From: an uncultured Acidobacteriota bacterium
Lineage (GTDB): Bacteria > Acidobacteriota > Terriglobia > Terriglobales > Acidobacteriaceae
DNA: 64,000 nt
NCBI GenBank assembly: GCA_903832055.1
Contig: CAILAC010000002.1
Location: 1-64,000 of the forward strand
Direction of reading: 5' to 3'
The notes under the pieces are model-generated. The model was not told the DNA's origin and did not search any database. It saw only the letters and a list, made by a program, of their open reading frames with translations. Both the position numbers and the translations under genes were made by a program. Shown piece by piece: positions 7,317-44,500 of this stretch; within the stretch, counting starts at the first letter, position 1, and the number at the start of each line of letters is the position of its first letter.

Positions 7317-8441
7317 ATGGCTAAGCTGACTGAGGTGCGTCATTCTGGAATGAAACTTCCCTTTCCCTCAGAAATCACGTCGCGACCTTTTGGAGTTGCC
7401 CCCGGCGGACTGCCGATTGAGTCCTGGAAGCTTACCGGAGTCGGTGGTCTTCAACTCGAAGCGATCCCCTATGGCGCCACCATCACCCGACTGGTGGTGC
7501 CAGACAAGGCAGGGCGTCTCGACGATGTTGTTCTCGGTTTCAACAGCCTCGAGGATTACCTGCGAGGCAGTGCATACTTCGGGGCAGCCATTGGTCGCGT
7601 TGCTGGCAGGATCGGCGGGGGAAGCTTCACGGTCGACGGCATGTCCTATGAGCTCGTGCGCAATGACGGGCCAAACCATCTTCACGGCGGCATCCTCGGA
7701 TTCGACAAGAAGATCTGGCACCTCGAAGCGACACGAAACGATCAGGGCGAGCCTTCGCTGGTTTTCACGTATACGAGCCCGAATGGCGAAGAGGGTTATC
7801 CCGGATCAGTTCACGTACGGCTCACATATACCGTCACCGACGATAACAAGCTGATCGTGGATGTTCAGGCTAAGTCAGACCAGTCGACTCCTTTCAACTT
7901 CACACAGCATTCTTACTTCAACCTCGCCGGTGAAGGGTCTGGCGCGATTACTGATCATGTTTTGCAAATCTTTGCGGACGACTTCGTTCCGGTCGATGAC
8001 ACGATGGCTCTATCTGGAAGCCTCGTGCCCGTAACTGGCCAGCGAAACGACTTCCGGCGACCAAGGAGCCTCCGCGAAGCAATCCCCGTGCTCTCTGGAA
8101 GACATGGCGACCTGTACCGCATTCAGCCTCCGCCCGGCGGTGCCGAGACGGGTCTCAGAATGGCGGCAAGATTGGTTCATCCAGAGAGTGGCCGAGTGCT
8201 CGAGATTTCAACCACTGAGGAGTATCTCCAGTTCTACACTGGGGTCGCCATTGACGGAACAATTTCAGGCAAGTCGGGTCGGTCTTACGGTGCCCACGCA
8301 GGGCTTTGCCTTGAGTGCGAGGGATATCCAGATGGGGCAAATCAACCGGCGCTGGGCAATATCGTCCTTCGTCCCGGCGGAACGAAGCGCTCTACTACCA
8401 TCTACAACTTTTCAATCGACACGCAGGAGGGTTGCCTGTGA
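7317..8441 (+). CDS. galM: Aldose 1-epimerase (mutarotase)
   Basis: The protein has 374 aa and interconverts alpha and beta anomers of aldoses such as galactose or glucose. It shows the family signatures: GATI in the first strands, NHLHGG carrying a substrate-binding His, TQHSYFNLAG with the catalytic acid His, and a C-terminal LECEGYPDGANQ whose Glu is at the position of the catalytic base. Length is normal for the GalM family. No signal peptide is seen, so it is cytoplasmic. It is the first gene of a plus-strand run with the oxygenase fusion (45-bp gap), a TIM-barrel isomerase and a sugar porter, which suggests a role in entry of a specific sugar rather than general galactose use. The ATG at 7317 has a weak ribosome site; the ATG at 7350 is possible. 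Confidence 0.9.
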   Translation: MAKLTEVRHSGMKLPFPSEITSRPFGVAPGGLPIESWKLTGVGGLQLEAIPYGATITRLVVPDKAGRLDDVVLGFNSLEDYLRGSAYFGAAIGRVAGRIGGGSFTVDGMSYELVRNDGPNHLHGGILGFDKKIWHLEATRNDQGEPSLVFTYTSPNGEEGYPGSVHVRLTYTVTDDNKLIVDVQAKSDQSTPFNFTQHSYFNLAGEGSGAITDHVLQIFADDFVPVDDTMALSGSLVPVTGQRNDFRRPRSLREAIPVLSGRHGDLYRIQPPPGGAETGLRMAARLVHPESGRVLEISTTEEYLQFYTGVAIDGTISGKSGRSYGAHAGLCLECEGYPDGANQPALGNIVLRPGGTKRSTTIYNFSIDTQEGCL

Positions 8442-8486: not shown

Positions 8487-10769
8487 ATGGCAAGTGAAGC
8501 TTACGCTCCATCGAGCAGCGCGGCGAAACTCGACTACAGCCTGACAGGTGTGAACGCGAGGCTTGCCATTGAGAAGGGCCTTGCCGAAGCCGACTGGTAC
8601 CAGTGTCCCGTCGAGCGTGACGCGATGCGCCAGCTTCTGGAGAGGCGCGACGCACCGGCGATTCGCGATACCGTTTTGTGGTTTGCGCTCATCTTCGCCA
8701 GTGGCTACACGGTCTACGCGCTCTGGGGCACCTACTGGGCTGTATTCCCCTATCTCATCTACAGCGTGCTTTACGCTTCAACGTCCGATTCGCGCTGGCA
8801 CGAGAGCGGGCATGGCACGGCTTTTCGTACCGATTGGCTCAATTATGCGCTCTATGAAATCGCCTCATTCATGGTGATGCGCGAGTCGACGGTCTGGCGC
8901 TGGAGTCACAACCGCCACCATAGTGACACCATCATCGTGGGCCGTGACCCTGAGATCGCTGTTCCCCGGCCGCCAGATATTGCTGCAATGATCAAGGGCT
9001 TCTTCAACCTTCACGTTTATCGGAAGTATTTCAGCAGGATTTGTCTTCACTCACTCGGCAGGATGGCCGACGAGGAAAGGACATACATCCCGGAGATGGA
9101 GTTTTCGGCTGTCTACCTTCGCGCGCGCATCTATGTCCTCATTTACGGCTCAGTGATTGGGCTGGCCATCTATTCCAGATCGCTTCTTCCCTTGATGTTT
9201 GTGGGATTCACCAACTTCTTCGGGTCATGGCTTCTCTCGGTATACGGCCTTACACAGCACACCGGACTTGCCGAAAATGTCCTCGATCACCGTCTGAATT
9301 GCCGGACAGTCTATATGGGGGCGATCAATCGGTATCTCTACTGGAACATGAATTATCACGTTGAGCACCACATGTTCCCTCTCGTTCCCTACCACGCACT
9401 TCCCAGGCTGCATGCTGCGGTGAAACAAGATTGCCCGATGCCCTACCCGAGTCTTTTGGGTGCATGGCGAGAGATTATCCCGACCGTCCTCAGACAAGTT
9501 AGGGATCCAGCCTTCCACGTAAAGCGCAGGATTCCGCCTCCCACCCCCGCATCGCCCACTTTGGTCCACACTTCAAATGCTGCAGCGGACCCAGATGGTT
9601 GGGCGGATGTTTGCCCTGCAAAGGAACTCCGAGCCTCCGACATCGTGCGATTTGACCACGGCCTCAAAACCTACGCCATCTATAGAACCGGAGAGGGGAA
9701 GCTCTACGCAACGGACGGAGTTTGCACGCATGGCAACACGCATCTCTCGAATGGCCTCGTGATTCAGAACATGATTGAGTGCCCCAAGCACAACGGGCGA
9801 TTCAATCTCGCAGACGGCTCGCCCGCTCGCGCGCCCATCTGCCGTGGACTCACAACCTATCCTGTCGAAGAGCGTGCCGGGCGAATTGTTCTCAAGGTAT
9901 CGAGTCCGGCAGGAAGCGGCGCTCGCCCCCAGCAAGCATACCGCTTTCGCGTTGTGAGCAATCAGAGTGTGGCTACCTTTATCAAGGAACTCGTTCTGGA
10001 ACCACTCGATATCACCGAGCCCCTTGTCTTCACACCCGGCGATTATCTTCAGTTCGATATTCCGGCCTATAACCAGATACGCTTTCGAGACTTCGAAATT
10101 CCAGAACCTTTCGCGACCATCTGGAGAACGCAACACGTCTTCGATCTTGTCTCCACAAATGATGGCCCTGCCCGGCGCAACAACTACTCTCTCGCCAGCA
10201 ATCAGCGAACAGAGCGCTTGCTGCGTCTCAACGTGCGCATTGCAACGCCTCCTCCGGGCCAGGACTGCCCTCCGGGCGCAGGCTCAAGCTACATGTTCAG
10301 CCTCAGGCCCGGTGACACGGTCACGGCAATTGGTCCCTTCGGAGACTTCCATATCAAGCCCAGCCAGCGCGAAATGGTGTACATTGGCGGCGGTGCCGGC
10401 ATGGCTCCTCTGCGTGCACATCTCTCCCATCTGCTTGAAACCGAGGATTCACCGCGGCGGATCAGCTTCTGGTACGGCGCGCGCTCAAGACAGGAGATCT
10501 TTTACGAAGGCTACTTCCGAAGCCTGGCTGAAACGAACCAAAACTTCCGCTTCCATCTCGCCCTGTCTTCTCCGTTGGACGAGGACAATTGGACGGGGCA
10601 TGTCGGCTTCATTCACCAGGTCGTGCTTGAGCAGTATCTGCACAACCATCCCAGGCCAGCATCCGCAGAGTATTACCTGTGTGGCCCTCCCATGATGATC
10701 AAGGCCTGCACGAGAATGCTCGAATCAGTTGGAGTTCCAAGGCAGCAGATTGCGTACGACGAATTCTAG
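8487..10769 (+). CDS. Three-domain oxygenase: desaturase-type diiron + Rieske ferredoxin + NqrF-type reductase
   Basis: This 760-aa fusion carries a complete electron-transfer chain. Residues about 1-335 are a membrane desaturase/hydroxylase domain with the diiron His boxes HESGHGT (from 105), HNRHH (from 141) and HVEHH (from 291), and a MocD-like segment HHSDTIIVGRDPEI. Residues about 365-465 are a Rieske-type [2Fe-2S] ferredoxin (CTH at 413, CPKH at 432), like MocE. Residues about 475-760 closely resemble the FAD/NAD(P)H C-terminal part of NqrF (LNVRIATPPPG, FSLRPGD, GGGAGMAP from 634, WYGARS, EDNWTG, CGPP from 732), like MocF. In rhizobia MocD/E/F are separate proteins implicated in O-demethylating a rhizopine. 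By analogy this enzyme may hydroxylate or demethylate a sugar or cyclitol at the inner membrane. A TTG at 8457 is an alternative start. Confidence 0.85.
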   Translation: MASEAYAPSSSAAKLDYSLTGVNARLAIEKGLAEADWYQCPVERDAMRQLLERRDAPAIRDTVLWFALIFASGYTVYALWGTYWAVFPYLIYSVLYASTSDSRWHESGHGTAFRTDWLNYALYEIASFMVMRESTVWRWSHNRHHSDTIIVGRDPEIAVPRPPDIAAMIKGFFNLHVYRKYFSRICLHSLGRMADEERTYIPEMEFSAVYLRARIYVLIYGSVIGLAIYSRSLLPLMFVGFTNFFGSWLLSVYGLTQHTGLAENVLDHRLNCRTVYMGAINRYLYWNMNYHVEHHMFPLVPYHALPRLHAAVKQDCPMPYPSLLGAWREIIPTVLRQVRDPAFHVKRRIPPPTPASPTLVHTSNAAADPDGWADVCPAKELRASDIVRFDHGLKTYAIYRTGEGKLYATDGVCTHGNTHLSNGLVIQNMIECPKHNGRFNLADGSPARAPICRGLTTYPVEERAGRIVLKVSSPAGSGARPQQAYRFRVVSNQSVATFIKELVLEPLDITEPLVFTPGDYLQFDIPAYNQIRFRDFEIPEPFATIWRTQHVFDLVSTNDGPARRNNYSLASNQRTERLLRLNVRIATPPPGQDCPPGAGSSYMFSLRPGDTVTAIGPFGDFHIKPSQREMVYIGGGAGMAPLRAHLSHLLETEDSPRRISFWYGARSRQEIFYEGYFRSLAETNQNFRFHLALSSPLDEDNWTGHVGFIHQVVLEQYLHNHPRPASAEYYLCGPPMMIKACTRMLESVGVPRQQIAYDEF

Positions 10770-10780
10770 AAAGGCTGAAC

Positions 10781-11710
10781 ATGAAGAGCTTTTCAAACTT
10801 TCTCAATGACGGGTCACAGAACGCTCCGCGGCTGAGCGTCTTTCTGAATCTCGATACGCTATTCAATCTGCGTGCGGATAGCATCTGGCTCGCTTCGGAC
10901 ACGATCCGCGGATACGATCGCCTCCGCAACGATGGATTCGATGGAGTCCAGCTGACTGCAAACAATATTTCACTGGCAGGCGTTCCTCTACCCTACTGCG
11001 GCCTCGACAGAATCAATACGCCCGAGCAGGCTGACCCTATCATTGCCAGACACTCGCAAGGCGGAGATCTCTGCATCACAGTTCACGCGGGCTGGGGCCT
11101 AGAAAGCGACGACGAATCGCACCGGCTGGTCGATGCAATTCTTGCTGCAGCTGAGCGATACAAGTTCCCGGTATTCCTTGAGACCCACCGCGCCACAATC
11201 ACCCAGGATCTATGGCGAACTGTCCAGATCACCCGGAAGTTCCCGGAGATCCGCTTCAACGGAGACTTCAGCCACTACTACTGCGGCCAGGAACTTGTGT
11301 ACGGCGATTGGTCAGACAAACTCGCGTTCATGCAGCCTGTCTTCGAACGCACCGGTTTCCTGCACGGTAGAATCGCCAGCCCCGGCTGCATGCAGGTAAC
11401 GGTCGATCGCGATCTGGGGTTGCGGCCATCGCAGGCGCACGGCGACATCAATTATCTCGCCCACTTTCGCGAACTCTGGACCAGCGCGATGCTGGGCTTC
11501 CTCGGCACAGCGGTGCCCGGGGACGTGCTCATTTTCGCTCCTGAACTTCTCTCGGGCGCCAATTACTACGCGCGCATGTTTCCTGACGCCACCATGCGGC
11601 TCGTCGAGGAGTCTGACCGCTATGAGCAGGCGCTTCTTTTGAAATCTCTCGCGCTGGCATGCTTTGCCGAAGCGAAAACCCTCTTCAACACAAGCGGTAC
11701 AACAGACTGA
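10781..11710 (+). CDS. Sugar phosphate isomerase/epimerase-like TIM-barrel protein
   Basis: The protein has 309 aa from the ATG at 10781, which follows AAAGG and lies 11 bp after the oxygenase stop. It has the xylose-isomerase-like (AP endonuclease 2) TIM-barrel pattern: an early strand FDGVQLTANN, HAGWG, metal-ligand candidates in FLETHR (Glu), NGDFSHYYCG (Asp, His) and FLHGRIASPG (His), and a late FAPELL (Glu). Such enzymes isomerise, epimerise or dehydrate sugars and inositol derivatives (IolE, IolI and similar). The exact reaction cannot be read from sequence. Tight spacing to the oxygenase suggests it handles the oxygenase product. Confidence 0.75.
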   Translation: MKSFSNFLNDGSQNAPRLSVFLNLDTLFNLRADSIWLASDTIRGYDRLRNDGFDGVQLTANNISLAGVPLPYCGLDRINTPEQADPIIARHSQGGDLCITVHAGWGLESDDESHRLVDAILAAAERYKFPVFLETHRATITQDLWRTVQITRKFPEIRFNGDFSHYYCGQELVYGDWSDKLAFMQPVFERTGFLHGRIASPGCMQVTVDRDLGLRPSQAHGDINYLAHFRELWTSAMLGFLGTAVPGDVLIFAPELLSGANYYARMFPDATMRLVEESDRYEQALLLKSLALACFAEAKTLFNTSGTTD

Positions 11711-11769
11711 AATTGCAATTGAAGAGCACAGCTTGGCCAGCAGCATCAATTCAGTTCAGAGGTAAAACA

Positions 11770-13140
11770 GTGAGCCGCACCGAATCGATCAATCTGCGTT
11801 ACGTACTTTTTCTGGCCTGCACAGCCGCCCTTGGTGGTCTGCTATTTGGATTTGACATCGCGATCATCACCGGTGCGGGCCCCTTCATCACGCGCCACTT
11901 TGGTCTGAGCGATCTTGGTCTCGGATGGGCGTTCAGTTCCCTTCTATTCGGCTGCGTATTTGGCAGCTTTGCCAGCGGCCGTCTGGCAGACCGCTACGGA
12001 AGAAAGCCACTCCTTCAGATCGTGGCCGTCCTCTTTGCTCTCACTTCAATCGCGACTGCCCTCGCGCCGTCCTTCACTGCCTTCATCATCGCTCGGCTTC
12101 TGGGCGGTGTCGCCGTGGGAGGAGTATCCCTCCTTTCGCCCATGTACGTATCCGAGGTCTCGCCCCCCTCGATCCGCGGCCGCATGGGAACCCTTTACCA
12201 GATGTCGATCATCGTCGGAATCATCGTCTCCTACGGCATCAATTTCATGCTTCGCAACGCGGGGCCGGCCAACTGGCGATGGATGTTTGCCAGTGGAGTC
12301 GTTCCGTCCGCAGTCTTTCTGGCCTGCGTCCTGCTCGCTCCTGAGTCACCTCGATTCCTGGCTCTGAAAGGCAAACGCGAAGAAGCCTTCGGCCTGCTCG
12401 AGCGCATCAGTGGCAAGCAAGTCGCCCAGGCACAGGTCGCAGAGATCGAGGCTAGCCTGCACAAGAATCAGCAGAACTGGCGCGGTCTGCTGCGGCCGGG
12501 AATGAGCAGGGCTTTCTCTGTCAGCATTGGACTTGCCATCCTCATCCACTTCTCGGGAATCAACACAGTCATCGACTATGCTCCCGCCATCTTCCAGTCA
12601 GCCGGCTGGAAGGTCGATGGGGCGTTGGCGTCCACATTCCTGGTAGGCATTACGGAGTTAGTCTTCACCATCGTGTCTCTCTGGTTCATCGATAGCTATG
12701 GCCGCAAGCCTCTCTACGTGGTCGGGTCAGCAGGCATGGCACTCTGCCTGCTCGCGATGGTCTGGGCTGTCGTGACAGGCCACTTCTACGGCGGCCTCGT
12801 TCTCGTCCTCATCCTGTCTTACCTGGCATTCTTTGCCGCATGCATCGGCCCAGTATTCTGGACTCTGGTACCAGAGATTTTCCCCAATGACATTCGGGGC
12901 ATGGCGATGACTGTTCCTGTACTGGTGCAATGGGTGGCCAATGCGATCGTAGTTCTCCTCTTCCCCTATGCTTTTCACGTCATAGGGAAAGCATTTACCT
13001 TTGGCGTGCTTGCACTGATGGCAATGGCCCAGGGCGTGTTTACCCTGCTTTACGTGCCAGAAACAAAGGACAAGACGCTCGAAGAGATTGAGAAGTCCTG
13101 GAGCGATCCAGTCGTGGTCGCGGTAAGTAAGACCAACTGA
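11770..13140 (+). CDS. MFS sugar porter
   Basis: The protein has 456 aa from a GTG at 11770 preceded by AGAGG at 7-bp spacing; the upstream extension overlaps the isomerase gene and lacks a ribosome site. Twelve hydrophobic segments and all sugar-porter signatures are present: GRLADRYGRK in the 2-3 loop, ARLLGGVAVGG, PESPRFL after helix 6, IDSYGRKPLY in the 8-9 loop and the end motif VPETKDKTLEEIE. It belongs to the XylE/GLUT-type proton symporter family of the inner membrane. Being the last gene of the galM-oxygenase-isomerase run, it probably imports the sugar these enzymes act on. Confidence 0.88.
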   Translation: MSRTESINLRYVLFLACTAALGGLLFGFDIAIITGAGPFITRHFGLSDLGLGWAFSSLLFGCVFGSFASGRLADRYGRKPLLQIVAVLFALTSIATALAPSFTAFIIARLLGGVAVGGVSLLSPMYVSEVSPPSIRGRMGTLYQMSIIVGIIVSYGINFMLRNAGPANWRWMFASGVVPSAVFLACVLLAPESPRFLALKGKREEAFGLLERISGKQVAQAQVAEIEASLHKNQQNWRGLLRPGMSRAFSVSIGLAILIHFSGINTVIDYAPAIFQSAGWKVDGALASTFLVGITELVFTIVSLWFIDSYGRKPLYVVGSAGMALCLLAMVWAVVTGHFYGGLVLVLILSYLAFFAACIGPVFWTLVPEIFPNDIRGMAMTVPVLVQWVANAIVVLLFPYAFHVIGKAFTFGVLALMAMAQGVFTLLYVPETKDKTLEEIEKSWSDPVVVAVSKTN

Positions 13141-13184: not shown

Positions 13185-14087
13185 TCACAACTCACGAGGT
13201 CTTGAAGCCATGGCCTCGCGCGGACCCCTTCCGTAAGCCTGCTTGAATACTTTGTAGAACTGCGCATAGCTCCCGAAGCCGGCAGCGTACACCGCTTCGG
13301 CAAGGGTCTTCTGATCAGACTGTTTGTACTCTTCGACAAATTTCGCTAACTTCAGCGAATTGCGATAGCGGCTCATCGGAATGCCCATCTGCCTTTGGAA
13401 CATGCGGCTCAGGTAGGACTTGCTCGCCCCGCAGGCTTTGGCCAGAACTTCAAGACTGCTTTCACTCTCCTCCGCGCTCAGGAGCGTGAGAGCGCGGCGC
13501 ACCACCGGATGCAGAGTTACGGCATCGCGCACCGGCTTGCCCGTCAGTTGGTATCGCCAGCAAAGCAGAAGCAGGTAGTGCAGCCCGGCGTTCAACGTGT
13601 CTGGATCGCGATGTTCAAAGCGAAACTCAGAGACGGGGCCGAAACCCGCCTCCAGATTGAGCAACTCCGCATCCAGAGAGTCCTGCATGAGCGAATCGAG
13701 AATGCTGCGAATCATCCCAAAAGACTCAACATTCAGCAGCGTGTTCAGAACACCGTCATGCTTCTGCAGGCTCTCGCGCAGATCTCCGTATAATTCGGTG
13801 CGGCAAGCTCTGCGAATCAGCGAAGGCTTGAACACTGCCACATAGAACTGCGCATTTGCAGACCGGCTGACAAGCTGATGATCCTGTCGCGGAAAAAGCC
13901 ATAGCAGGGTTCTGGGAAGAAAGGTGAAGCGGCGTCCATCAACGACGTAAGTGACCGTACCCTGCACAACCAGGTTCAACTCAAGCTCGTTGTGGTGATG
14001 GCTCTGGATCTCCTTGAGATTGCGGGTGGAATCGGCCAGATACAGCAGGCCATCGTACGTCTTCGAAAGTTTCAGATCCACCAACAT
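13185..14087 (-). CDS. AraC-family transcriptional regulator
   Basis: The protein has 300 aa. The N-terminal half is a cupin-like sensing domain (HHNELELNLVVQGTVTYVVDG), and the C-terminal 100 residues carry the double HTH of AraC/XylS proteins (SLEVLAKACGASKSYLSRMF and the second motif TLAEAVYAAGFGSYAQFYKVF with the conserved Gly-Phe-x-Ser-x-x-x-F pattern). It is convergent with the sugar porter gene (44 bp between stops) and divergent from the secreted glycosidase-like gene, with 205 bp in between. It is the obvious local regulator for both units; the inducer is presumably the imported sugar (inference). Confidence 0.9.
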   Translation of the reverse strand: MLVDLKLSKTYDGLLYLADSTRNLKEIQSHHHNELELNLVVQGTVTYVVDGRRFTFLPRTLLWLFPRQDHQLVSRSANAQFYVAVFKPSLIRRACRTELYGDLRESLQKHDGVLNTLLNVESFGMIRSILDSLMQDSLDAELLNLEAGFGPVSEFRFEHRDPDTLNAGLHYLLLLCWRYQLTGKPVRDAVTLHPVVRRALTLLSAEESESSLEVLAKACGASKSYLSRMFQRQMGIPMSRYRNSLKLAKFVEEYKQSDQKTLAEAVYAAGFGSYAQFYKVFKQAYGRGPREAMASRPREL

Positions 14088-29519: not shown

Positions 29520-32500
29520 CTATTGCGTGGTAAAGGTTGAAACGACGCCCGGAGCATAGAACGGGTTTCCGGCGATGTCGGTCAAGTACCAGTTTGGATT
29601 CGACGTCACAAGGTCGTAGATGGTTGCAGCAGTAAGCGGTGCTGTCGGCGTCACCTGCACAGTCTTGTAATCGGCTGAGATGGTGATTGTCGCAGGCACT
29701 ACGACCGAGGTGTTGTGGTTGCGCAGGTAGATATGACCCGTGTCGATCAGAATCGGGTTCATGGCAGTGCTGAAGGTGAGCGAAACGGCGGGTGTTGCCG
29801 TGTTCACCCCGGTTGCGCCATTCAGCGGGCTTGCCGCTGTCACAGTGGGGTTGGCCCATGCAAAACTCGAACCCGTCGTGAAAGTCCGAGTAACGGGAGT
29901 CATCGGATTGCCGTTGTAGTCCTGTACTCCGGAGATGTTGTAGGTGTAGGTGGTATTCGCCTTCAGCGACCAGGGCAATATCACTGCCACCTCGGTGTTG
30001 CCATTGTTCAGGGATACCCCAATTGGTATGGGACTTCCACCGTTGGGGGTGAGCGTGATATTTCCCAGCGAGTTGAGAGCGATTGGCTCGCTGAAGAGAA
30101 GTCCGAGACTGGTGCTGTTCCAGGGACCATTGTTGGTATTGATCGGCACATTGGTCATGGCGTTCGGCGGGTTGGACTGGATCAGGACGGGACCGGTAAC
30201 GCTTGGGCCGCTGCCGGTGTAGAAGACTGCTGTGGAGTTGTATTGCCCATTGCCGGTGAGATCGATGGCACCACCGCAGGTGTAGTAGAACTGCGCGTTG
30301 GCCGCGAGACTGGCGGTCGGTGTCAGGGTTGCAGTGAGCAAGTCAGGCGAAACGGAGTAGGTGACTGGAACGTGAGTTCCACCGGCATAACTGTAGATGT
30401 AGGTGTTACCCGCCGTGATGCTGCTGGGGTCCATGGGCTGTGAGTAACGGCAGTTGAAGATTGCATTGGTCGCAACTCCAGTCTGCCCGTAGGCGAAGTC
30501 GAGAGTCACCGTCGGCGTGGCGTAGTCAGGCATCGCCGCGGTTGTGAATTGCGTGGTACTGGAGTTGAAGAGGTTGCCCGCATAATCCAGCAGCCCATTG
30601 AGACTGACCTGGATATTGGACGATGGCGGCAACCCGTTTTCTGGTGTGAAGTTGGCGCCGATGGCATCATTGCCACTGTAGACGAAGGACCAGCTACCAT
30701 GAACAGCGCTGCCGCCGTTGCTGACCTGTGCGGTGGTCGGATTGACCGAGGTGCGATCGACCGGCTTGGAAAAGACGAGTCGAATGTATGCATTGGTGCC
30801 TACATTGACCGAGGCATCCGGCGGCCCGACGGTGACGGTTCCGGAAGTTACGTCAGGGCCAGAGTTCGTGGTGAAGTAGGTGGTCCAGCAAGAGCTTTGA
30901 GCCGCAACGCCGTTGGTGCCTTTGACGGATGAGTTTGCGCAGACGTAGTAAGTTGTGGCCGGGGCAAAGGGTGCCGTCGGTGTAAGTCGAACCAGCTTTG
31001 GTGATGGCTGCGTGATGGTGACGGGCAAATTTCCATTGAAATACACATTGCCGGCCAGAGTAGTGCCATCGATGGGAAGACTGAACAAAAGATCAACGAC
31101 GGCATTGGTGGGTACGTTGCCTGATCCGTAACTCGGACTGACCGCTACGATTACGGGCGCATCGGTTGAAGGATGGGCCGTGGGCTGAATGTAGAACGTA
31201 CCACTGTTGCCGGTAAATACGTCGCTGTAGATGTCTCGCACGTTGGAGAAGAACCATTGAACGACGGCCCCGCTTGGGAAAGGCACACTGGGCGTGTACT
31301 GCACCTCAAAATCACTGGCCAGCGAATGAATGGTTCCGGCGTAGACCTGCCCGTTGACGGTGACGATGAGGTTGCCCGCCAGTGTGGTGGGATCAACTGG
31401 CCGATTGAGGAAGAGAGTTAGCAGCGTATCGGTGGCAACCCCGGTCGCATTGAATGTTGGGCTGACATTGTTGACGGTGCCATTGCCGGTGGCGGGATTG
31501 TAACCAGTGGTGAAAGTGCTGGTGAAGAGGTTGGTGAGTGAGTTGCCCGATGGATCGGTGATGCCGCCGGCAGGCAAGCTGATGGTGAAGTTTGTTCCGA
31601 CAGGGAGCGTACCGGCGTTGAACGTCATCGTTCGGTCGTCGGCTGACATGGTGATACTGCCGCGATCGAACAGACTTTGACCTGCAAAAAGCAGAGCATT
31701 GTTGCCGTTGCTGTAGACACTGTAGGGATTGATGGACTTGTTGAATGTGACGGAAACCGACATGTCCGGGCGAACACCTGTCGCTCCGTTCGCCGGATTG
31801 ACCGAAAGAACCTGCAAGGCCGAGGTGTCTGGCGAGCCGGTGACAACCGTGAAGTAGACAATTTGCTGGTTGTAGCAGCCGCCATTGAGGAATACATCAC
31901 CGAGTACGTCGGTCGGGCCGCCGCACTCTCCCATGTAAATGGTCGCTCCAGCCGGATAGGGACTGGTGGGCGTGAATGTTACCTGGTTGCCACTGACGGT
32001 ATAGGTTCCGGCAAGGCCGTAGTTACTGTTCCACGAATTCATGACCAACAGAGTGTTGCTATTGACAGAAGTCGGATTCAGTATCTGGCTAAAGGTGAGA
32101 ATGATGGGCTGCGTTGCCGAAACACCAGTAGCGCCGAGTGGGATATTGGTGCTGACGAGAGTCAATCCTCCACCGGATGTAGTGCTGCCTGTGGTGAAGG
32201 TACTATTCAGCGGTACGACAGGGTTGCCGACTGCATCCCAGAACCCGCCAACCTTGACGGAATAGGTGATATTCGGCAACAGGGGGCTGGCCGGCGTGAA
32301 GAGAAGCGTCTGGTTATTCGGTTGAGTCACTGTTCCAGCGACGGCGTGATTGAGATTATCCAGCAGCCGAATCGAGGTTTGATTCCAACTGAGGGGATCG
32401 ATTTGCTCGCTGATATTTGCGGTGATGATTGAGTTGAGCGGAATGCCTGTTGCTCCGCTGCCGGGCGTGATGGCGACTGTGGGTCCGGCAACATCTGTGC

Positions 32501-35500
32501 CGCTTGAAGTGTAGAAGTAGATGTCCAGTTGATTGCCATTGTTACCGTTCTGGTCCTGGAATCCACAGCAAGCCTGGAAGTGGTAGCGGGTGTTTGGCAG
32601 CAGCGGACTCACCGGCACCAAGGTTACCTGCATACCATTGGACGAAAGCGACAGGGTGAGGGGGACGAACTGTCCCGTATCGGCAAGGAACATCCGGAAG
32701 GTGCTGTTGGAAACCGTGATCGGGTTCAACGGCTTGTTGAAGACGATTTTGGGTGCGACGTTGGTGCCGACCGTGGAGTTGTTGGCGGGTGCATAGGTAA
32801 CCGCAGTGGGCGCTCCCAGATCGAAGGTTGACCCGGTGGTGAAGCTGTTTGTCACGGTCGCGACAAGGTTGCCTGCTGGATCTTTGACGCCGGCGATGGT
32901 GAGCAGATAGGTAGTGTTTGGAGCCAGCGGAGCGTTGGGAAGGACCTGGAGTACGGAGTTGCCCGCGATGAGAGAGGGCGTGGCCGCGACCGGTGTTCCG
33001 CCGGTTGAGAGCACAACGCCGCCAAGAGTGTTGGGGTCAAGATGTGCGGTGAATTGCGCTTGAATCAGGACGTTTGTTCCAACGCCTGTGGCGCCATTGA
33101 GGGGGTTGAACTGAACCACACCAGGCGCTACTGACGCACCGGTGAAATCGGCATAGAAGTAGAGGACCACCCCTTGAACTCCGTTGCCAGCAAGGTCAGT
33201 GCCTCCAGTTACATAGAGGTAGTACTGGCGGCCAGCGGCTAATGGAGCCGTAGGCACGAGGTAGGCGACGGACTGGTCGGCGCTCCAGGAGAGCGTAGCG
33301 GCGACATTTGTGCCCAGGAGCGTGTCATAGATGCGAATGTTGCCGGTGTTGAAGGTGGTGACATCCATCGATTCGCTGAACTGAATGGTGATGGCTGAGT
33401 TGGTGGGTATGCTCTCGTTGCTTGTGACGCTGGTCCATACCACCGTTGGCTGGTTAAAGTCCGGTCCAGGCCCAGTAAGGAAGTTGGAAGTGAAGTTGAC
33501 TGCGTGGCCCTGCTGGTCAAGAACATTGGTGAGTTTGATGACCAGATTTGCGCTGCTCGGAAGCGGAGCATTGGGCACAAACTGCACCCTGGTGTCATTG
33601 GAACTGAACCAGTAGCTGCCCGCCAGAGGCGTGCCGCCGTGGGTCACCTGGAAACTCGAACTGTTGATGCTGACCGGATCAATCGCCTTGCTGAAGACAA
33701 CTCCAGGCTGGACGTTGACGCCAACATTGCCTGCGCCATTAAATGGTACCGCGCTGAGGACATTGGGAAGCGATGTATCAGTTGTTGTACCAGTGTAGTT
33801 ATACCAACTGGTCGCCGTGGCTGGGACGCTGGTGGAGCTGTGCAGTCCCGCTGTGAGATAGGTGTAAATGTAGGTGCTGGCGGAGAGGTTACTTGCGGGA
33901 ACAATGCGCACCACGTTTGGCTGGGGCATGGAATAAGTTCCAGCTACATGCAGGCCGGTGCTTGAGTCATAGAGATAGATGTTTGAGCTATTGACAGTTG
34001 CCGGATCCAGGGGAGTGTTGAACTGGATGTCAAATTCAGTATTGATTGGAATGGTGGACGTATAAGCCGCAGGAGAAACGACTTGAACAGCGGGCACCAG
34101 GGTGCTGGTATCCCCGGCGACATAGAAGTAGCCTGAAGCGGAGTTGATCTGTGTGCCGTAGGTGACGTCGGTGAGGCCGCCATTGGTCCACCACTGGATC
34201 AAAGCGCCGGGCGTGAAGGGAGTGGAGGGTGTGAAGACGAGCGTGTAGCCGTTGTCAAGCACCTGGACATTGCCGGTGAGCGCCGCGTTATTCTGAGCCA
34301 CCTGGATACCGTTACTGGCGCCGGCCGGGTTGATGGGAAGGTTGCTGAAGAGCACCAGCGGAGCATTGGCATCGATGCCACTGCTGGCGTTGCCGGGGCG
34401 CGAGGAAATGATGGTGCCGTTGAAGTTTGAGTCATAGTAGGTGGTGGTGAACTGACTGCTGTAGTTAGCCAGCGGATTGCCTGACCAATCCTGAATGCCG
34501 CTGTTGAGATATGCAGTCATTACCGAGCTTGAAGGCAGCGGGTAGCAGTTGAACTGGATCGAGGAGTTATCCTGCGAACGGCTGTAGCTGGTGCATGTAG
34601 GGCTCTGCGAGTCTCCAGTAAAGAGTGCGAAGTCGATGCCCGCGCCGCTGTTGACGGTTCCCGGATTGAGAGAACGGTTGAAGGTGGCGGTAACCGGTGC
34701 GCGGAGACCCACATTGGTGGCTCCAAAGGCCGGCGAAAACGCAACAACCTGGAATGAAGTTGCAGGTGGTGTGACGACGCTCCCGGTCGTGAACTGGAGC
34801 CACTGAAGTCCATAGCAGCCAGGGTAGGTATCTCCTGCTGTGTCATATGGCCCGTTGCAGTTGCCTACGTAGATGCTTGTGTTGATTGGGAAGGGGCTAT
34901 CAGGCGTGAAGATAACCTGGCTACCAGTGACCTGATAGGTGCCTGCGAGTATCTGATTGCTGTTCCAACCAATCATGACCGGCAGTGTGCTGGAGCTAAC
35001 CGTTGCTGGGTCAAGTGGATGGTTGAAGTTGAGCGTGATGGTCGAGTTGGTGGACACGCCGGTTGAGGCGCTGGTCGGGGTCGAGCTGACGAGGGACAAT
35101 CCGCCGGTAAAGCTTGCGCCGCAGGTCTGGATGCTGGCCTGCAAACGGAAGGCTTCATAGGAGTTATCGGTCGTTCCCCATTGCAGCGAGAGTGTGTTGA
35201 GGCCTGCATTGAGGTCACCTACCGGTAGCGGGATCATCAGCGGATAGAGGCTGCCCGAGGAGCCGATTTGTGCGGTAATGGCGTTGCCGTTGAGCAGCAG
35301 GGTTCCGTAGTCATCAATCCCCACTCCGCCGACGAGACACAGGTTCGTCAAGCTATACCCGGTCAGGTTGAAGGTGGTGGAGTATGTGCCGAGGGTGTTC
35401 CCAGTTGTGCTGTTTGGATTGATCGCAACCCAGTCGGAACCGGGACCGTTTGCCAACCAGTAGTTGTACCAGCCCGTGTCTCCCGGCCCGACGACCTGCA

Positions 35501-38500
35501 GAGGCTGAGCGGTACTGCTCCCGTTGGGTACGACGACCCAGTGCCCGTCATTGGTATTGTTGGCGGTAATCAGGTTGCCGGAAGCATCGAGGCCTGTCGA
35601 CAGGATCACAGGTGCGACAGTGGTGGAAGTGGTGAAGGTGCTGGTTGAGGTGGAGCCAATATTCCCGACGAGATCCTTATAACCACTCACCTGAATCGTG
35701 AACTGAGTATTGCCTTTGAGCAGTGCGTTGGGTACGAAGGTCAGGGTCATCTGATCCGCGCCCACGGTTGTGGTACCCGCCAAAGCTGCGCCTCCGCCGG
35801 TTGGCGTCACACGGATGACGTTGAAGATGGCGGGATCCATCGGTTCGTTGAAGTGCACAACGACCTGTGCGTTAATCGGAACAGACGTGCTTGCGTTGGC
35901 CGGGAAGACGGACTTGACCTGGATAGGCACAAGGTCGGTTCCCGCGCCTGTTGTGAAGTATCCATCCACTCCGTAGAGATAGTTTCCGTCGATGTCGTAG
36001 CTGGTACCCGAGCTCATATGAACGCGGTAGTAGGCATTCGGCAAAAGCGGTGCGCTTGGGGCAAACGTGGCGCTCTTCGCGTCGGAGGCAAGACTGACTG
36101 TTCCAAGGATGTACTTGCCTGAATCGGCGTTGTACATCAGCAGTGAACTGGTGTTGATGTTGAGTGGGTTGACGGGCTTTGTGAAGAGTATCTTCGGCAC
36201 AAAGTTGGTGCCCACATTCGTTTGGTAGTTCACGAAATCGATGGAGGCGTAGTTGCTGGCGGTATCGGTGCCGCTACCGGTAGTGAAGCTGAAGGCCCCG
36301 GTTGTGACGACATTGCCAGCTGTATCCGCGAGAGGCGAAGCGTAGCTCACCGTGTAGGTCGTCGATGGCGATAACGGGGCTGTGGGAGTGAAGGTGAGGA
36401 TGTTTCCAGGTCCCCAGCAGCAGGTTGCCTGACTGTTCCAGGCAAAGGTTCCAGCAACGGGCGTGGCACCATGCTTGACGGTCACTCCGCTGACCGTTGA
36501 TTGATCCATATCCGCGCTGAACTGCAATTGAACCGCGACATTGGTACCGACGCCTGTGCTACCGGCGCGCGGGTTGGTCAGGACAACAGCAGGTGGCGTT
36601 GTGTTGGCCGAGAACGTGGTGTAGAGATAGACCGTGTATTGGCCGAAAGCATTGCCGGCCGCGTCTTTGATACCACCGTTCATCTGGAAGTAATACTGTG
36701 AGTTCACCGCCAGCAGAGAGCTCGGCACAAAGGTCAACACGCGACCCGTTGCATCAAGGTTCACAGCGCCGGGTACCAAAACCCATCCACTGGGGTTGGT
36801 GGTTAGATACATTTTCACCGTCGCCGTCGTCAACGTGGTCCTATCCATGGGCTGGCTGAAAACGGCGATGATGTTGCTGTTGATCGGCATCCCGCCCGCA
36901 TTCGCGCCAGGGCTGAAGGTGATGACCGTAGGCGGAGTAATGGCCGGGGCCTGCACGGTAAAGCCGCCCGGAATATGCTCGACCTCGGCACCCGTGGTGA
37001 CGACCACATCCTGCGGCCCTACGGCAGCGCCCGGTGCAACCGCGATGGTAGCGGTCAGTGTGGTGGGATTGGCCACCACGACTGGACCTGCAACTCCCGC
37101 TGCCGCTCCTCCCACGCTCACTTCAGGGCCGAAGCTCGCCTTGGTTGTTGCTCCCCAATTGGTGTACTGGCCGGTAAGGGTCACGTTGACGGTGGCCCCG
37201 GGAGCCCCAATATTTGGGTTGATTTGCGTGATGATCGGGGTTCCCGGCGTGACACTGAAACCACTGTTGAGCGTCACGGTTTCGCTGTTGGTGGTAACCG
37301 TAATGTCGCGGCTGCCAACCGTTGCATTGGCCGCGACCGTCACATTGGCCGTCAGCTGGGTGAGGCTGCTGACGGTGACCACATTCACCGTGATCCCAGA
37401 GCCAAAGCTGACCGTTGAAATCCCCTGCTGGAAGTTGGTGAACTGGCCTGTGACCACGACATTGGCCGTTGATCCTGCCTGCGCGGAAACGGGGAGAGCA
37501 GTCAACAAGGCTGGTACGCCAGTGAGCACGGTAAAGCCGCCTGTAATGCTGGCTGTCTCAGCATTGGTGGTTACCGTTACGGTGCGCGAACCGAGGGTTG
37601 CGGTGGGGCTGATGGTGATGTTGGCAACCGCAGATGTCGAACTGCTGACCGTGGTTGAATTGACCGTGATACCCGCGCCAAAGCTGGCATGGCTGGCGCC
37701 GTTGACAAAATTGGTGAACAGCCCGGTGAGGGTGACATTGACGTTGCTTGTCCCCTGCGTGCCGGTGGGTGGGTTGACGACGGAGAGATGCGGACTACCA
37801 CCATTGACGGTGAAACCGCCGAGAATCGTTGCGACTTCGCCGCCGGTTGTCAAAGAGACGTCATAGGCAGCGAGAGGCGTTGAACTGGGGATGGTGATGT
37901 TGACTTTTGCATGCAGAGCATCGACGACAGTAATGCCGGTGACCGAGATGCCGCCGCCAAAAGCTGCTGAAGTGACACCGGATGCGAAGTTAGTCTGGCT
38001 GCCGGTGACCTGGATGACATAGGAATTGTTTTGGCCGCCGGAGGACGGGCTGAGGCTGAGGATGGCTGCCGGGCCGCGCGTGACCTGGAAGCCATTGGTG
38101 AGGGCAACGACCTCTGCCCCGGTGGTCACGGAGACGTTGCGGTATCCAAGCGCGGTAGTGGGCTGAACCGTAATGTTGGCAACGATCTGGGTGGCGCTGT
38201 TTACCGTGACTGAATTGACCGCAATACCGGTGCCGAAGCTGGCGGTGCTCGTGCCGTTAACGAAGTGAGTGAATGCGCCGGTGATGGTGACGTTTTCGCT
38301 CTGGCCCTGGGTTCCAGTGTTGGAAACGGCAGCGAGCAACTCAGGCTGGGTTTGAGTAATCGTGAAGGCGTTGACCTTGGTTGCTACTTCGCCAAGAGTG
38401 GTCGTGGTTACGTTGACCTGGCCTGCTGGTGCATTGATATTCACAGTAATATTCGCCGTAATCGAGGTTGGCGAATTGACGGTGAAGCTGTTGACAAGCA

Positions 38501-41500
38501 CGTTGGGGAAATTGAGTAAGGTTACGCCCTGCTGCCAATGGGTGTTGATTCCATTGATCTGAACTGCTGGCAGATTGACGGATTGTCCACCAGTGGCCGG
38601 TGTGACGCTGTTGACGACCGCCGGCCCAGGCGAAACATACATCGCGTACGGAAGCGTCAGGATCTGGGTGCCGGTGCTGACGGTCAATGTGCGGTAGCCA
38701 AGGTCGGTGGTGGGCTGCACATAGCCGTTGACCGTCAGTGTCGAGTCTCCGGTGACAGAGACGTGAGTGATCGTAACGCCGAGACCAAAATCGACAGTCG
38801 GTGGGTTGGCGAGCCAGTGCGTTGCCTGGCCAAGGATCGTGAAGACGGCCGAACCCTGCTGCGGCACCGAACCTGGTCCCGAGGAAAGCAACAGGGGCGT
38901 TCCGACCTGGACGACGAAGCCGTTGTTGATATTTGCCACTTCGCCAAGAGTCTGGGCACTCGCGCCGGTGGGCCCTATTGGCGCCAAAGCGGGCAGAGCC
39001 AATGTAAGCGTAGCGTCTGTAGCACTGTTCACGGTGGTGCTGGTGACGACGATTCCAGCGCCAAAGCTGAAGTGTGTCGCGGGGTTCCAGTGAGTGTTCT
39101 GCCCGGTGACATCGACCGTGATCGTGGAGCCCTGAGGTGCAGTATTCGGCGTGATGGCAGAAATGAGCGCAAGACTCGGTGTCACTGAGAAGCCTGCACC
39201 GCTGACCTGAACACCCTGCGTGGTTGCCACAACGCTGCGGCCGCCAAGTGTAGCCAGTTGATCGACACTGATGCTTTGCGTGGCGATCGTGGGCCCGAGA
39301 ATCGTCGGCGGACCGTTGACGGTGATGCCGGGGCCGAAACTGAATGAGGTGGTGTTATCAAAGGTCGTGAATTGACCAATGATATTGACCACAACGTTTT
39401 GCGCGCCCTGCAGAGCAGAGCCAGGATCGACGATGCTCAGGGTTGGGACGCTTACAACGACGTTGAAGCCGGCGCTCTCAGTTTCAGAGCCAGTGGTGAA
39501 AACGATCAGGTTTGATTGCGCATGGGATGCGGTGATGGTGATGTTGGCGATGGCGCTGGTGGGGCTGGTGACCTGGAAGGTATTCACCGTAATACCGCTG
39601 CCAAAGGTAGCCTGAGTGCCGGTGGTTGGATTTGGATCCCAATGGGTATTGGAGCCAGCAAAGCTGATGGTGAAGGTCTGACCTGGCAACCCGGACGACG
39701 GCCAGTAATAGGAGATGTACGGCGTAGGCGGTACAGGCGTGTAGACCTGGAAGTTGCTGGTAAGCCCCTGTGCGCCGGTCTGGACGACGACCGTGCGATA
39801 TCCATCCTTGGCCGCGGGATCAACATTGATGACCGCCTGGATGGTGGTGTTATTGCCAACGACGTAGGAGGACACAGTTACGCCTGGTCCAAAGCTAACG
39901 GTGGTATTTGCCTGCGTCCACTGGGTATAGATGCCATGGATCGTTACCTGAAGCTGGCTGGTCCCGGGGGTGGCGTTGTTGGGCGACAGGTAAGTAATCA
40001 CGGGAACGCCGCCGGTGACGACAAATGCGCCGCTATCAACGAGCGACTCTCCGGCGGTGACCATGTAGACGGATCGCGCACCTGGATTGGCTGCTTCAGC
40101 AATCGACATATCGACAGTGGCGCTGGTGGGGCTGTTGATCACAACCGAATTGATGGTGATATCGGAACCGGCACCAGGAATCCAGAACTGGGTAAAGTTC
40201 TGCGCCCAGTGGGTGTTCGCACCAGTGATGTTGAAGACGACTTCCTGACCTTCATTGCCCGTGGCCGGAGCGACGTTGGAGATGATGGCAGGCCCGGGGA
40301 TGATGCTGAAAACGCTGGCGGTGACAATCTCACTGCCGGTGCTGCCTGGGGGTGAATTGGGCGGGCAGGGATTATGGGTATCAATCAGGTATTTGCACGG
40401 GACACCCGGCGTGGTGACGGTGACCGAGCGCCCGCCCGCATACGACAGCGGATCGATGCTGATGTTGACCATCAGATCAGACGAATCGGTGAAGGAGATA
40501 CTGTTGACCGTAATCCCAGCACCAAATGTGGCGGTACTGGCGGCGCTGAAGTGGGTGTACTGGCCCACGAGATGGATGTCAAGATTTTGAACACCCTGTT
40601 CCGCCTGGTTTGGCAGTGCTTCGTTGAGCGTTCCCACACCAGGGGTTACCGAGAAGGCAAACTGCTGAGTTGCAACTTCGCCATAGGTTGTCATGGTGGC
40701 AGTTGCAAAACCGGTCGGAGCTGCCGTGGTGACCGCCAGTGCAACCTGTGCAGTTGTGGGGCTCGTCACGTTCACGCTGCCCACATTGATGCCGGGGCCA
40801 AAGTTTGCCGTCGTCACGCCAGCGATAAAGTGCGAGAAGGAACCAGTAACGGTGACAGTCTCGGTGGAGCCTTGAACGCCAATATTTGGGCTCACTGAGG
40901 TAATCTGCGCCGGACCTTTTGCGACGCAGAAGACCCCAGGTATTCCGGTTACCTGTTCGCTGCCTGTCGTGATCGTGATGACGTGGCCGCATGGGGAGCC
41001 ATAATCGACGTATGCGTTGGGGCTGACGGTAATGCTGGCAGTCAGATTGCTGGAGTCAATGACGTTGATTGAATTGACCGTGATGTCAGCGTTATATGCA
41101 GCCGAAGTTACCCCTTGTTGCCAGTGAGTAAAGCGGCCCAGCACCTGCACTGTGAGGGTAACGCCCTGCTGGGCAACGTTGGGCGTGGTGGCGAGCAGGG
41201 TGGCAAAGCCCTGCTCAATATCGATGGCCTGCTGGAGCGTCACAACCTCGCCATCCGTTCTTGCCGTAAGCGGGACAAAGCCGACGGGTGAACTGGAGAG
41301 AACAGTGATCTGCACGGTGGCCGTGGTCGGACTGTTGATGGTGAGTTGGTCGATGAGGACGCCGCCGCCAAAGCTGAAGGTGGTTTCACCCTGGAGCCAG
41401 TGAGTGCCGACGCCGACGACATTGAGCGTGGAAGTCTGCAATTGCGCTACAACCCATGGCCCGGAGCCGCCGCCGCAGAAATTCACGATATTGCCGTTGC

Positions 41501-44500
41501 AGTTCTGCACGGCCGGTAGCACGCTGGCGATCAGCGCGGCGTTGGGCGTTACAGTGAAGCCTGCGCCGCTCACGATCTCTGAACCCGTCATAAGGATGAC
41601 GCTGTTGCCACCTACGGGAGCAGTGGGAGAGACCGCAATGGTGGCCGTAGCCGTGGTTGGGCTGGTTACGACAAAGTTGGATACTGTCACCCCAGCGCCG
41701 AGGATGGCTTGAGTCTGTCCCTGCACCCAGTGGGTGAGCGAGCCAGTGATCACGACGTTTGCGGTTGCGCCCTGTGCCGCGCTCGACGGCGTCACACTGA
41801 CAATCGTCGGACTGCCGGGGCCGTCCACGGCAAAGCCAGAGATCACCTGCTCCGTGCCGGTGTTGACAAAAACTGTCTGCCATCCGGCTGGCGAGGGCGT
41901 AGGAGTTCCAGCATTTGAATAGGTGGTCGTGATATTTGCAACCAGTGTGGTGGCCGAGTTAACCGTCACGCTGTTGACGGTAACGAAAGGCCCAAAGAGA
42001 ACCTGGGTAGTGCCAGCCGCGAAATGAGTATTCGAGCCGGTTATGGTCACGTTCATCGTGGTACTTTGCGGCCCGTGGTACGGCGACACATTGACGATCG
42101 ATGCGGGATTACTTGTGACGTTGAAATAGGTGCTGACGATTTCGCCGCCAGTGGTAAACGTGATGGTCCGCAGGCCCAGCGCAGCCGTCGGGGTAAGTGT
42201 CACGGTTGCTGTCGCGCCTACCGGGCTGGTAATGACAAAGTTAGAGAGGGTGACGCCCTGCCCACTTATAACTGGCAGTGTCGTGGGACCAAAGTGTGTG
42301 AACTTCCCGGTAAAGCTGACACTCAGCGTTGTTCCAGGCAAGCTATTGGCAGGACTTACCGTCAGCGTTGGTGTCTGGGCATAGACAGAAATGTTGGCAT
42401 TGACGATTTGTCCGCCAGTGGCCATGTAGAACGCAAATGTACCGACCGAGGTATCCGTAGACACACTGATGTCGAGATTGGCGTGGGTAGCGTCAACGAT
42501 GGTGACCTTGTTGACCTGAATATTTTCAAATGGGGATGGATAGAAGGCAGACTTCGTTGTGCCCTGGACCCAATTGGTATTCAAACCGACGACAGCGAGG
42601 GTGACTTGCCCGCCCTGCGGCACACTGTTAGGCGTAACGCTGATGATCTGAGCGCTTGAGGGCGTAACAGTAAAGCTGAATGGGAACTCGGTCGTTGCGC
42701 CGGCAGGGCCGCTGACGAGGTTGGCCGCGACGCCGCCCACGTTCGCATTCTGCGAAACAGTGATATTGGCGGTGACGACGTGAGGCGAATTCACCGTAAG
42801 CGAGTTGACGACAATGTTGCCTCCGAAGTTCGCCAGGATATTGCTCTGGTTGAAATTCGTAAAGGAGTTGCCCGTGATGACCACGTTGAGTGTTTGGCCC
42901 TGGATTGCCGTGCTTGGTGTGACAGAGAGTAGAGCTGGTGTCGCCCCTGTGACGGTAAAGGCACTGCCGAGCGTGGCAATTTCGCCGCCCGTTGAAACGG
43001 TGACACTCTGGACGCCGACCGTCGCTGACTGAGCTACCGCGAGCTGCGCAATTGCTGTAGTTGGGCTGGTCACCTGCACATTGCCCACGATGACGCCGCC
43101 GGAGATAGAAACCTGTGTCGCATCTTGCAGGAAGTGGGTGCCGGAAGCAGTGAGCGTTACAGGCAGACTCTGCCCCTGGGCCGCCACGCTGGGGCTCACG
43201 CTCAGTAGGGTCGCGCTATTCGGTCCAATCTGAAAGGCCTGAGGTCCGGAAGTCGCAAATTCCCCGCCCGTGACCAGCGTGATGGAGCGATAGCCAATCG
43301 GGGTGGTATTGCTGATCGTAATGTTGGCAACCGCGTCGGTGGGGCTATTCACCGTCAGTGAATTGATCGCGATGCCATCGCCAAAGTTGGCATACGTAGT
43401 GCCGCCAACAAAATTGGTGCCAACGCCCGTCAAGTCCACATTGAAGGTCTGCCCCTGCTTGCCAAAGCTTGGCGTGACCGCCGAGATTGTATGCGCATTC
43501 GAAGCTGAAGCAATGATGAAAGCGGAATGTAGTTGCGCGACTTCTGTACCTCCACCTGCCAGTGGAGTCGTGACCTTGATGTTGCGCGCGCCCGCAATCG
43601 CCGAGGCACTAATCGCCAACTGAGCCGAGATGGAGTTTGCTGTTGTCGTCGCAGGATTGGGAACTGTCGCCGTGATGGCGTTGGGGATTGCGCTGCTATT
43701 GGTATCGACAAAGGTGATCACGGAAGCCGACGAGAAGTGAGTCCAGGTATTGCCGGTGATGGTGGCCATCACAGTAGCACTTGGGCTGCCGGCCCCGGGC
43801 GAAACTACGGCAACAGCCGCTGGCGGATTCGTTGTACTTGCCGATCCGAGCAACTGCACCACAAGGGGCGACCCCACGGCCGCTGTATGCATCACGGTCA
43901 GCGAACCGGACAGTGGTCCAGGCGTGGCTGTGGCGCTGGGGGCAAAATTCACCGAAAGAGTGCATGTGGAGTGGGCCGCAATGACACCAGATGCGCAATT
44001 GCTGGTCGCTTGAAAATTGCCCGCCGGGGTGAGAGTGAAGCTTTCTGATTGGTTCTCGTGATTCGTTAGAACGATGTTTTTAACCGGGCTGATGGTGCCC
44101 AACTTCTGCGCAGAGAAAGTCAACGCACCAGGCGTCAACGTGAGTGGCGCATTTCCCATTCCAGACAGGTTGACCACCTGCGGGCTGGTAAACGCATCGT
44201 CATATACTTGCACCTGACCCGCACGTACGCCACCGATGGTTGGTGCAAAGCTGACCGTCAGGTTGCAGGATGCGCCGCCAGCAAGCGATGCCGGAGCAAT
44301 CGGGCACGTTGTCGAAGTCTGCTGAAAATCGCCATTGATCTGGAAGCTGGTGATATGAATGGGCGTCAGCAGGTCCTGGTTTTTCACGACAATTGTCTGG
44401 TATGGGCTGGTGCTGCCGACGTTTGCCGCAAAACTGGTCAGCGACAAAGGCGTCACTGTGACCGGTGCAGAACCAGAACCAGAAAGTGGAATCGTCTGTG

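Follow-up and report, generated by a model that had tools for sequence, protein, structure and literature searches.

A candidate self-sufficient O-demethylase for O-methylated monosaccharides that joins a MocD-like diiron oxygenase, a Rieske ferredoxin and an NqrF-type reductase in one chain

O-methyl sugars occur in the polysaccharides of plants, algae and bacteria, and their methyl ether blocks ordinary sugar catabolism. The oxidative route that we found described for monosaccharides consists of a cytochrome P450 that works with two redox partners in marine bacteria; the system of marine Flavobacteriia converts 6-O-methyl-D-galactose to the sugar and formaldehyde, and the structure of the Zobellia enzyme has been solved by crystallography (PMC10033563). 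In rhizopine catabolism the corresponding enzyme is MocD, described as an oxygenase that yields scyllo-inosamine from 3-O-methyl-scyllo-inosamine (PMC2593844). Two further papers report that the mocD promoter is rhizopine-inducible (PMC10107442) and that the name mocD is also borne by an unrelated mannopine gene (PMC6341043). Here we analyze a 64,000-nucleotide stretch of acidobacterial DNA (the window) in which the equivalents of such an oxygenase and its redox partners are encoded by one gene. A literature search that covered few subscription journals found no paper uniting a desaturase, a Rieske and an NqrF module. From its sequence and gene context, the protein is probably a self-sufficient, membrane-bound O-demethylase that uses O2 and NAD(P)H to act on O-methylated monosaccharides.

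Domains and motifs of the fused protein

The fused diiron oxygenase, Rieske ferredoxin and NqrF-type reductase (8487..10769, plus strand) comprises 760 residues counted from the ATG at 8487, which lies within a mechanical open reading frame that begins at an upstream TTG (8457). As the sequence-only reading had held, three domains of an electron chain share this single polypeptide, for which Pfam returns FA_desaturase, Rieske, FAD_binding_6 and NAD_binding_1 in that order, each with a score above its curated cut-off. The MocD-like FA_desaturase domain (8736..9449, plus strand; residues 84-321, E 1.2e-30) carries the boxes HESGH, HNRHH and HVEHH at positions 105, 141 and 291, and a PF00487 domain with three such His boxes marks the MocD-type subfamily. 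It is followed by a MocE-like Rieske [2Fe-2S] domain (9600..9863, plus strand; residues 372-459, E 8e-17) with the ligand pairs CTH (413) and CPKH (432), and by an NqrF-type FAD/NAD reductase domain (9939..10766, plus strand) in which Pfam places FAD_binding_6 at residues 536-622 (E 1e-4) and NAD_binding_1 at 633-741 (E 7e-17), and in which GGGAGMAP and CGPPM lie at 634 and 732. At the threshold used, the only hydrophobic stretches lie in the desaturase part, at about residues 58-81 and 206-254.

The motifs are well kept among the 71 full-length relatives in the matches listed. All 71 have HExxH, HxxHH and HxEHH in the desaturase part and CxH and C.KHNG in the Rieske part (locus L106 reads CTHS), and in the reductase CGP is found in 71, NYS in 68 and GGGA in 61. 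Every motif had been called intact from the sequence, and this stands for the His boxes, the Rieske ligands and the NAD motifs, but not for the FAD motif: NqrF has R-x-Y-S, which we take to be the FAD-binding motif, whereas in the HMMER alignment the fusion has R-N-N-Y-S, one residue longer. NNYS recurs in 58 of the 71 full-length relatives in the matches listed, with RRNYS among the others. A PDB sequence search with the desaturase profile gave nothing at E 0.1, and an AlphaFold model of the whole fusion from an 11-sequence input was poor (pLDDT 54) and was set aside.

The likeness of the reductase to NqrF without the N-terminal part of NqrF, also claimed earlier, is confirmed. The NCBIfam model TIGR01941 (NqrF) scores the fusion at 329 bits against a cut-off of 295, and the best PDB matches are NqrF entries (e.g. 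7qty, E 6e-83); the alignment covers model positions 130-403 only, so that the plant-type ferredoxin part found at the N-terminus of full-length NqrF is missing. Since this score exceeds the cut-off, annotation pipelines may wrongly label such fusions Na+-NQR subunit F. The window's genome yielded no other NqrF above the cut-off, and of 20 other fusion genomes only 2 contain the full-length protein. Two of 20 fusion genomes (G213:C37:913350-914189, and G246:C82:52017-52841 or C94:23407-24240) have a further NqrF-type match, within a frame of about 780-840 residues, which is probably a second copy of the fusion.

The protein had been described as MocD, MocE and MocF equivalents in one chain, a description that holds for MocD and needs amendment for the other two. 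The MocE model TIGR02377 gives the Rieske domain 111.7 bits, below its cut-off of 136, so that the domain is related to MocE but no member by the curated rule. The MocF of the Phyllobacterium zundukense Tri-48 locus is a Pyr_redox_2/Reductase_C protein, whereas the reductase of the fusion matches NqrF and FAD_binding_6/NAD_binding_1; judged by domain content, it is an equivalent of MocF and not its homologue.

Spread of the fusion and kinship with MocD

The fusion is real. Although the window comes from a draft assembly in 18 contigs, the chance that separate genes were joined by a sequencing or annotation error is negligible, because the uncut architecture recurs in ten further full-length copies in the window's family and in 71 of the best 80 contigs (of at least 549), which excludes the frameshift error considered in the sequence-only reading. 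Within the family, 11 of 200 sampled genomes, the window's own included, carry the full fusion, the other ten at 62-72% identity. A sample of 297 genomes from the phylum contains three matches at E 1e-100, again counting the window's own, one of which spans residues 10-508 inside an 836-residue frame. When GTDB genome contigs were scanned with the desaturase alignment, at least 549 relatives were found; the best 80 of these contigs are 64-77% identical in the desaturase part, and the 71 uncut copies have at least 740 residues. The remaining nine are cut by contig ends (L065, L072, L096 and L102) or contain early stops (L070, L079, L087, L092 and L099). By record titles, the matches listed come mostly from Acidobacteriota and Verrucomicrobiota and also include Planctomycetota, Lentisphaerae, Kiritimatiellae and one Anaerolineae MAG. 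The fusion occurs patchily, yet copies from different phyla are highly identical, which suggests lateral transfer between them. Eight phage records match the fusion, none of which covers 80% of the protein. An NqrF-like stretch of 42% identity also occurs in a 4.8-kb record deposited as phage sequence (MT838854.1:2031-2903), which may be a bacterial contig under the wrong label.

Plasmid sequences searched by tblastn returned 286 records, mostly rhizobial, with a best identity of 54%. The desaturase domain is 52% identical to that of the Tri-48 locus (L118), where the MocR regulator (765 bits, cut-off 650) and the MocE ferredoxin (186 bits, cut-off 136) both exceed their NCBIfam cut-offs, and which by these scores is a true rhizopine locus. 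There, MocR and MocE are followed by the Pyr_redox_2 reductase, a PanB-like protein (126 bits, cut-off 272) and PurU, while in Mesorhizobium huakuii (L116) PurU and FolD adjoin MocDEF; PurU and FolD at these positions fit the disposal of formaldehyde and C1 units. The rhizobial arrangement, with PanB-like and PurU genes (L118:11747-13488) and also FolD (L116:11721-14334), is a possible folate route for methyl-derived formaldehyde. A search around 86 fusion loci for PanB-like and PurU genes had no match at any of them, and neither curated type of formaldehyde dehydrogenase reaches its cut-off in the window's genome.

We constructed a tree of 53 desaturase sequences: 38 fused (35 of the 71 full-length copies, the window, L011 and L012), nine of MocD type and six others, the last comprising three IolD-linked desaturases of the window's family, one from Paraburkholderia and two distant desaturases. 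The fused sequences form one clade (support 100/99), which is consistent with one origin of the fusion; it probably arose once and later spread between phyla. Fused and MocD-type rows together form a clade apart from the six others (98/99, with the program's long-branch warning), so that the desaturase domain groups with the MocD of the verified rhizopine locus; the MocD-type rows alone are not monophyletic, and one of the nine (L118) comes from that verified locus. Three very distant desaturases (DesA-like, Nostoc and Ruegeria) were dropped because an earlier tree that included them had weak support, with the fused clade at 90/66, and end branches of up to 10.

The placement bears on the reading of the protein as an acyl-lipid desaturase or alkane-type hydroxylase that is merely located among sugar genes. 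Such a function is suggested by the Pfam name FA_desaturase, by the weak matches of MocD (39 of 500 bits) and of an IolD-linked relative (38 of 500) to the DesB model, and by the existence of a three-domain AlkB fusion (PMC8918992). We nevertheless consider it very unlikely, as the domain clusters with MocD-type rows, in line with the sequence-only reading, and as the DesA model is matched, at 89 bits against a cut-off of 400, by the genome's second PF00487 protein.

Gene neighbourhoods of the fusion

At the window, the gene order is GalM, fusion, TIM barrel, sugar porter and a convergent AraC gene. An aldose 1-epimerase of the GalM type (7317..8441, plus strand; Pfam Aldose_epim, E 3e-75, with galM_Leloir below cut-off) is the first gene of a likely operon. 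Eleven bases past the stop codon of the fusion lies the ATG of a xylose-isomerase-like TIM barrel protein (10781..11710, plus strand), which has no Pfam match and is assigned by its predicted fold: the model (pLDDT 90) finds in Foldseek, at TM of about 0.5, UlaE, a D-psicose entry, xylose isomerases and IolE as top matches. An MFS sugar porter (11659..13140, plus strand; Pfam Sugar_tr, E 3e-111, and TIGR00879 above cut-off), whose true start is probably near 11771, follows, and facing it is an AraC-family regulator with an AraC_binding sensor domain (13185..14087, minus strand; Pfam HTH_18 and AraC_binding). A scan for promoters and terminators yielded no more than in shuffled sequence. Elsewhere in the window, the minus strand holds an open reading frame of 5555 residues (29520-46187).

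Neighbours were counted at 86 fusion loci, taken from the best 80 of at least 549 contigs and from the family loci; L024 (a short contig) and L042, L053, L058 and L071 (copies of family loci) were left out, and other close relatives were kept. Seeds from these loci were searched by phmmer (E 1e-10) against stop-to-stop segments, so that the gaps are slightly understated, and both the seeds and MtaB were selected after inspection of the neighbourhoods. Of the 86 loci listed, 38 have a xylose-isomerase-like gene (kinds c2, c5 and c6) at most 1 kb from the fusion and 40 have one at most 8 kb from it, the numbers for GalM being 23 and 29; at up to 1 kb all of these genes are on the strand of the fusion, and because few more appear farther out, both can be said to cluster at the fusion. 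A sugar porter and an AraC regulator occur within 3 kb in 16 and 19 of the 86 loci listed, the steep fall with distance being the sole control for all four counts. Pfam AP_endonuc_2 backs the isomerase-like kinds in L022 (c5) and in three of four tested c6 members, while the window's kind, c2, is placed by fold search. A further kind, c31 (within 1 kb in 4 of 86), resembles a TIM barrel by eye and had no Pfam match in three members; with it the isomerase-like count is 42, without it 38. Of the 86 loci listed, 63 have a scored sugar-type gene no farther than 5 kb away (60 without three loci that have c31 only), as do 44 of the 50 with full 5-kb flanks on both sides; none was found within that distance in 23 of the 86, six of which have full flanks. 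RhaT is present in 5 of the 86 loci listed.

Other sugar-related genes were seen around individual copies. Upstream of the fusion in L072 (3417-7758) are Pfam-backed GH43, rhamnogalacturonan lyase (RGL11) and GH27-type alpha-galactosidase genes, and L055 and L073 hold genes related to this set. A Gfo/Idh oxidoreductase and an AP_endonuc_2-type TIM barrel recur near the fusion in L022, L075, L082, L092, L108 and others, the oxidoreductase within 3 kb in 8 of the 86 loci listed.

An isomerase-like gene so close and on the same strand in 38 of 86 loci also speaks against a lipid or alkane substrate. The earlier idea of a sugar or a cyclitol substrate is thus supported in its first half by the counts for isomerase-like and GalM genes, and an aldose appears to fit the gene context better than a cyclitol. 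Demethylation of O-methyl inositols (pinitol, ononitol or rhizopine) and not aldoses, as by the separate MocDEF proteins, would agree with the rhizobial MocD-type proteins being the nearest relatives, with an unfused desaturase of the window's family near IolD in L029 (925 bits, cut-off 715; L030 and L031 share the gene cluster, with IolD scored in L029 only) and with the iolG that follows the MocDEF set of Peteryoungia. We judge this unlikely, since the fusion loci hold aldose 1-epimerase, sugar porters and, in the five cases above, RhaT, and since an aldose 1-epimerase would be pointless for inositols, which have no anomeric carbon.

Genes for methyl-ether chemistry adjoin some copies of the fusion, although not the one in the window. 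Corrinoid genes stand beside the fusion in 5 of the 86 loci listed (L035, L045, L054, L070 and L093). In L093, which has L-rhamnose genes, the order is RhaT, the L-rhamnose mutarotase RhaM, FGGY kinase, URO-D (preceded by two unlabelled open reading frames), fusion, TIM, DUF1638, RACo, AraC, corrinoid protein and MtaB; L035 and L045 have similar corrinoid sets, and L054 and L070 parts thereof. Pfam backs the L093 set, the corrinoid protein and URO-D of L054 and the URO-D of L070. Eight of the 86 loci listed have a URO-D gene on the strand of the fusion and at most 3 kb away, and the nearest solved protein to that of L093 is a methylcobalamin:CoM methyltransferase. To obtain a control, we looked for MtaB in 50 genomes of the best 80 contigs, picked for long flanks and including all five corrinoid loci. 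It occurs in 14 of these chosen genomes, in four of which (L045, L054, L070 and L093) it is no more than 10 kb from the fusion, where 0.07 would be expected for 4.2-Mb genomes (nominal P of about 8e-7, for a family picked post hoc); in the genome of L035, which has corrinoid genes, MtaB was not found. A P450 gene adjoins the fusion in 2 of the 86 loci listed, L054 and L100. L054 has Fer2 and P450 genes, and its P450 matches PDB 6g5o, presumably the 6-O-methyl-galactose demethylase, at E 5e-112 with the next best match at 6e-42. The L100 P450 was rejected as a 6g5o type, as it has many better PDB relatives and 6g5o is outside its best 60. A literature search that covered few subscription journals and was judged by titles and opening lines of abstracts, with passages of PMC11264602, yielded no paper on O-methyl sugar demethylation by corrinoid genes in Verrucomicrobia.

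A reaction that leaves the methyl group alone, in which a sugar ring or side-chain carbon is hydroxylated or desaturated, would share the same sugar gene context, and MocD weakly matches the model of the L-arginine hydroxylase GntB (41 of 380 bits), which indicates polar hydroxylation substrates among relatives. That reaction would, however, leave the corrinoid methyltransferase and 6g5o-type P450 genes beside some copies without a role, and MocD is the closest relative whose pathway is known; we regard such a reaction as improbable. O-demethylation of a sugar is the reading we prefer, because the methyl ether is what MocD-type oxygenases and O-demethylation by corrinoid enzymes and P450 have in common, and an aldose rather than another substrate is indicated by the aldose epimerase, RhaT and sugar porters nearby.

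Proposed function and comparison with known systems

In the mechanism that we propose, hydride from NAD(P)H would reduce the FAD of the C-terminal NqrF-type module, from which, as the domain order suggests, electrons would pass via the Rieske cluster to the diiron site of the N-terminal membrane domain. By analogy with MocD, O2 would then hydroxylate the methoxy carbon, and the resulting hemiacetal would split into free sugar and formaldehyde. The gene families and their order further suggest that the porter imports the sugar, that the aldose 1-epimerase interconverts its anomers, that the TIM barrel protein isomerizes or epimerizes the sugar and that the AraC regulator senses it. If so, a single-gene, membrane-bound diiron alternative would explain how O-methyl sugars are opened in soil and freshwater bacteria, and the protein would be a compact biocatalyst that carries its own electron chain. 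The corrinoid genes beside some copies raise the idea that one sugar is demethylated by paired oxic and anoxic routes. A broader proposal, which we hold tentatively and at slightly less than even odds, is that the fusions form a widespread, undescribed family in Acidobacteriota and PVC bacteria of one-piece O-demethylases for O-methyl aldoses, in some cases O-methyl-rhamnose, partly clustered with an O2-independent corrinoid O-demethylase, so that the same sugars could be opened with and without O2.

The domains of the fusion recall several known systems. It has in common with NqrF, a subunit of the Na+-pumping NADH:quinone reductase, the FAD/NAD module, but lacks the N-terminal part of that protein. 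According to PMC8918992, the alkane monooxygenase ferr_ferrR_AlkB likewise gains self-sufficiency from a ferredoxin and a reductase fused to a class III diiron membrane hydroxylase, with the redox partners at the N-terminus and alkane as substrate; in the window's fusion the partners are C-terminal, the ferredoxin is of Rieske type and the reductase of NqrF type. The P450 6-O-methyl-D-galactose demethylase described in PMC10033563 performs the oxidative O-demethylation of a monosaccharide with the help of a ferredoxin and a reductase, as proposed here, but is a haem enzyme with separate partners, whereas the fusion would be a diiron membrane enzyme. Closest is the rhizobial rhizopine oxygenase MocD-MocE-MocF, which has a desaturase of the same subfamily, a MocE-like Rieske ferredoxin and the same expected chemistry of O-demethylation. 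It consists of three separate proteins instead of one, its MocF is of the Pyr_redox_2/Reductase_C and not the NqrF type, and its genes lie in an inosamine context, whereas the fusion is found among aldose genes.
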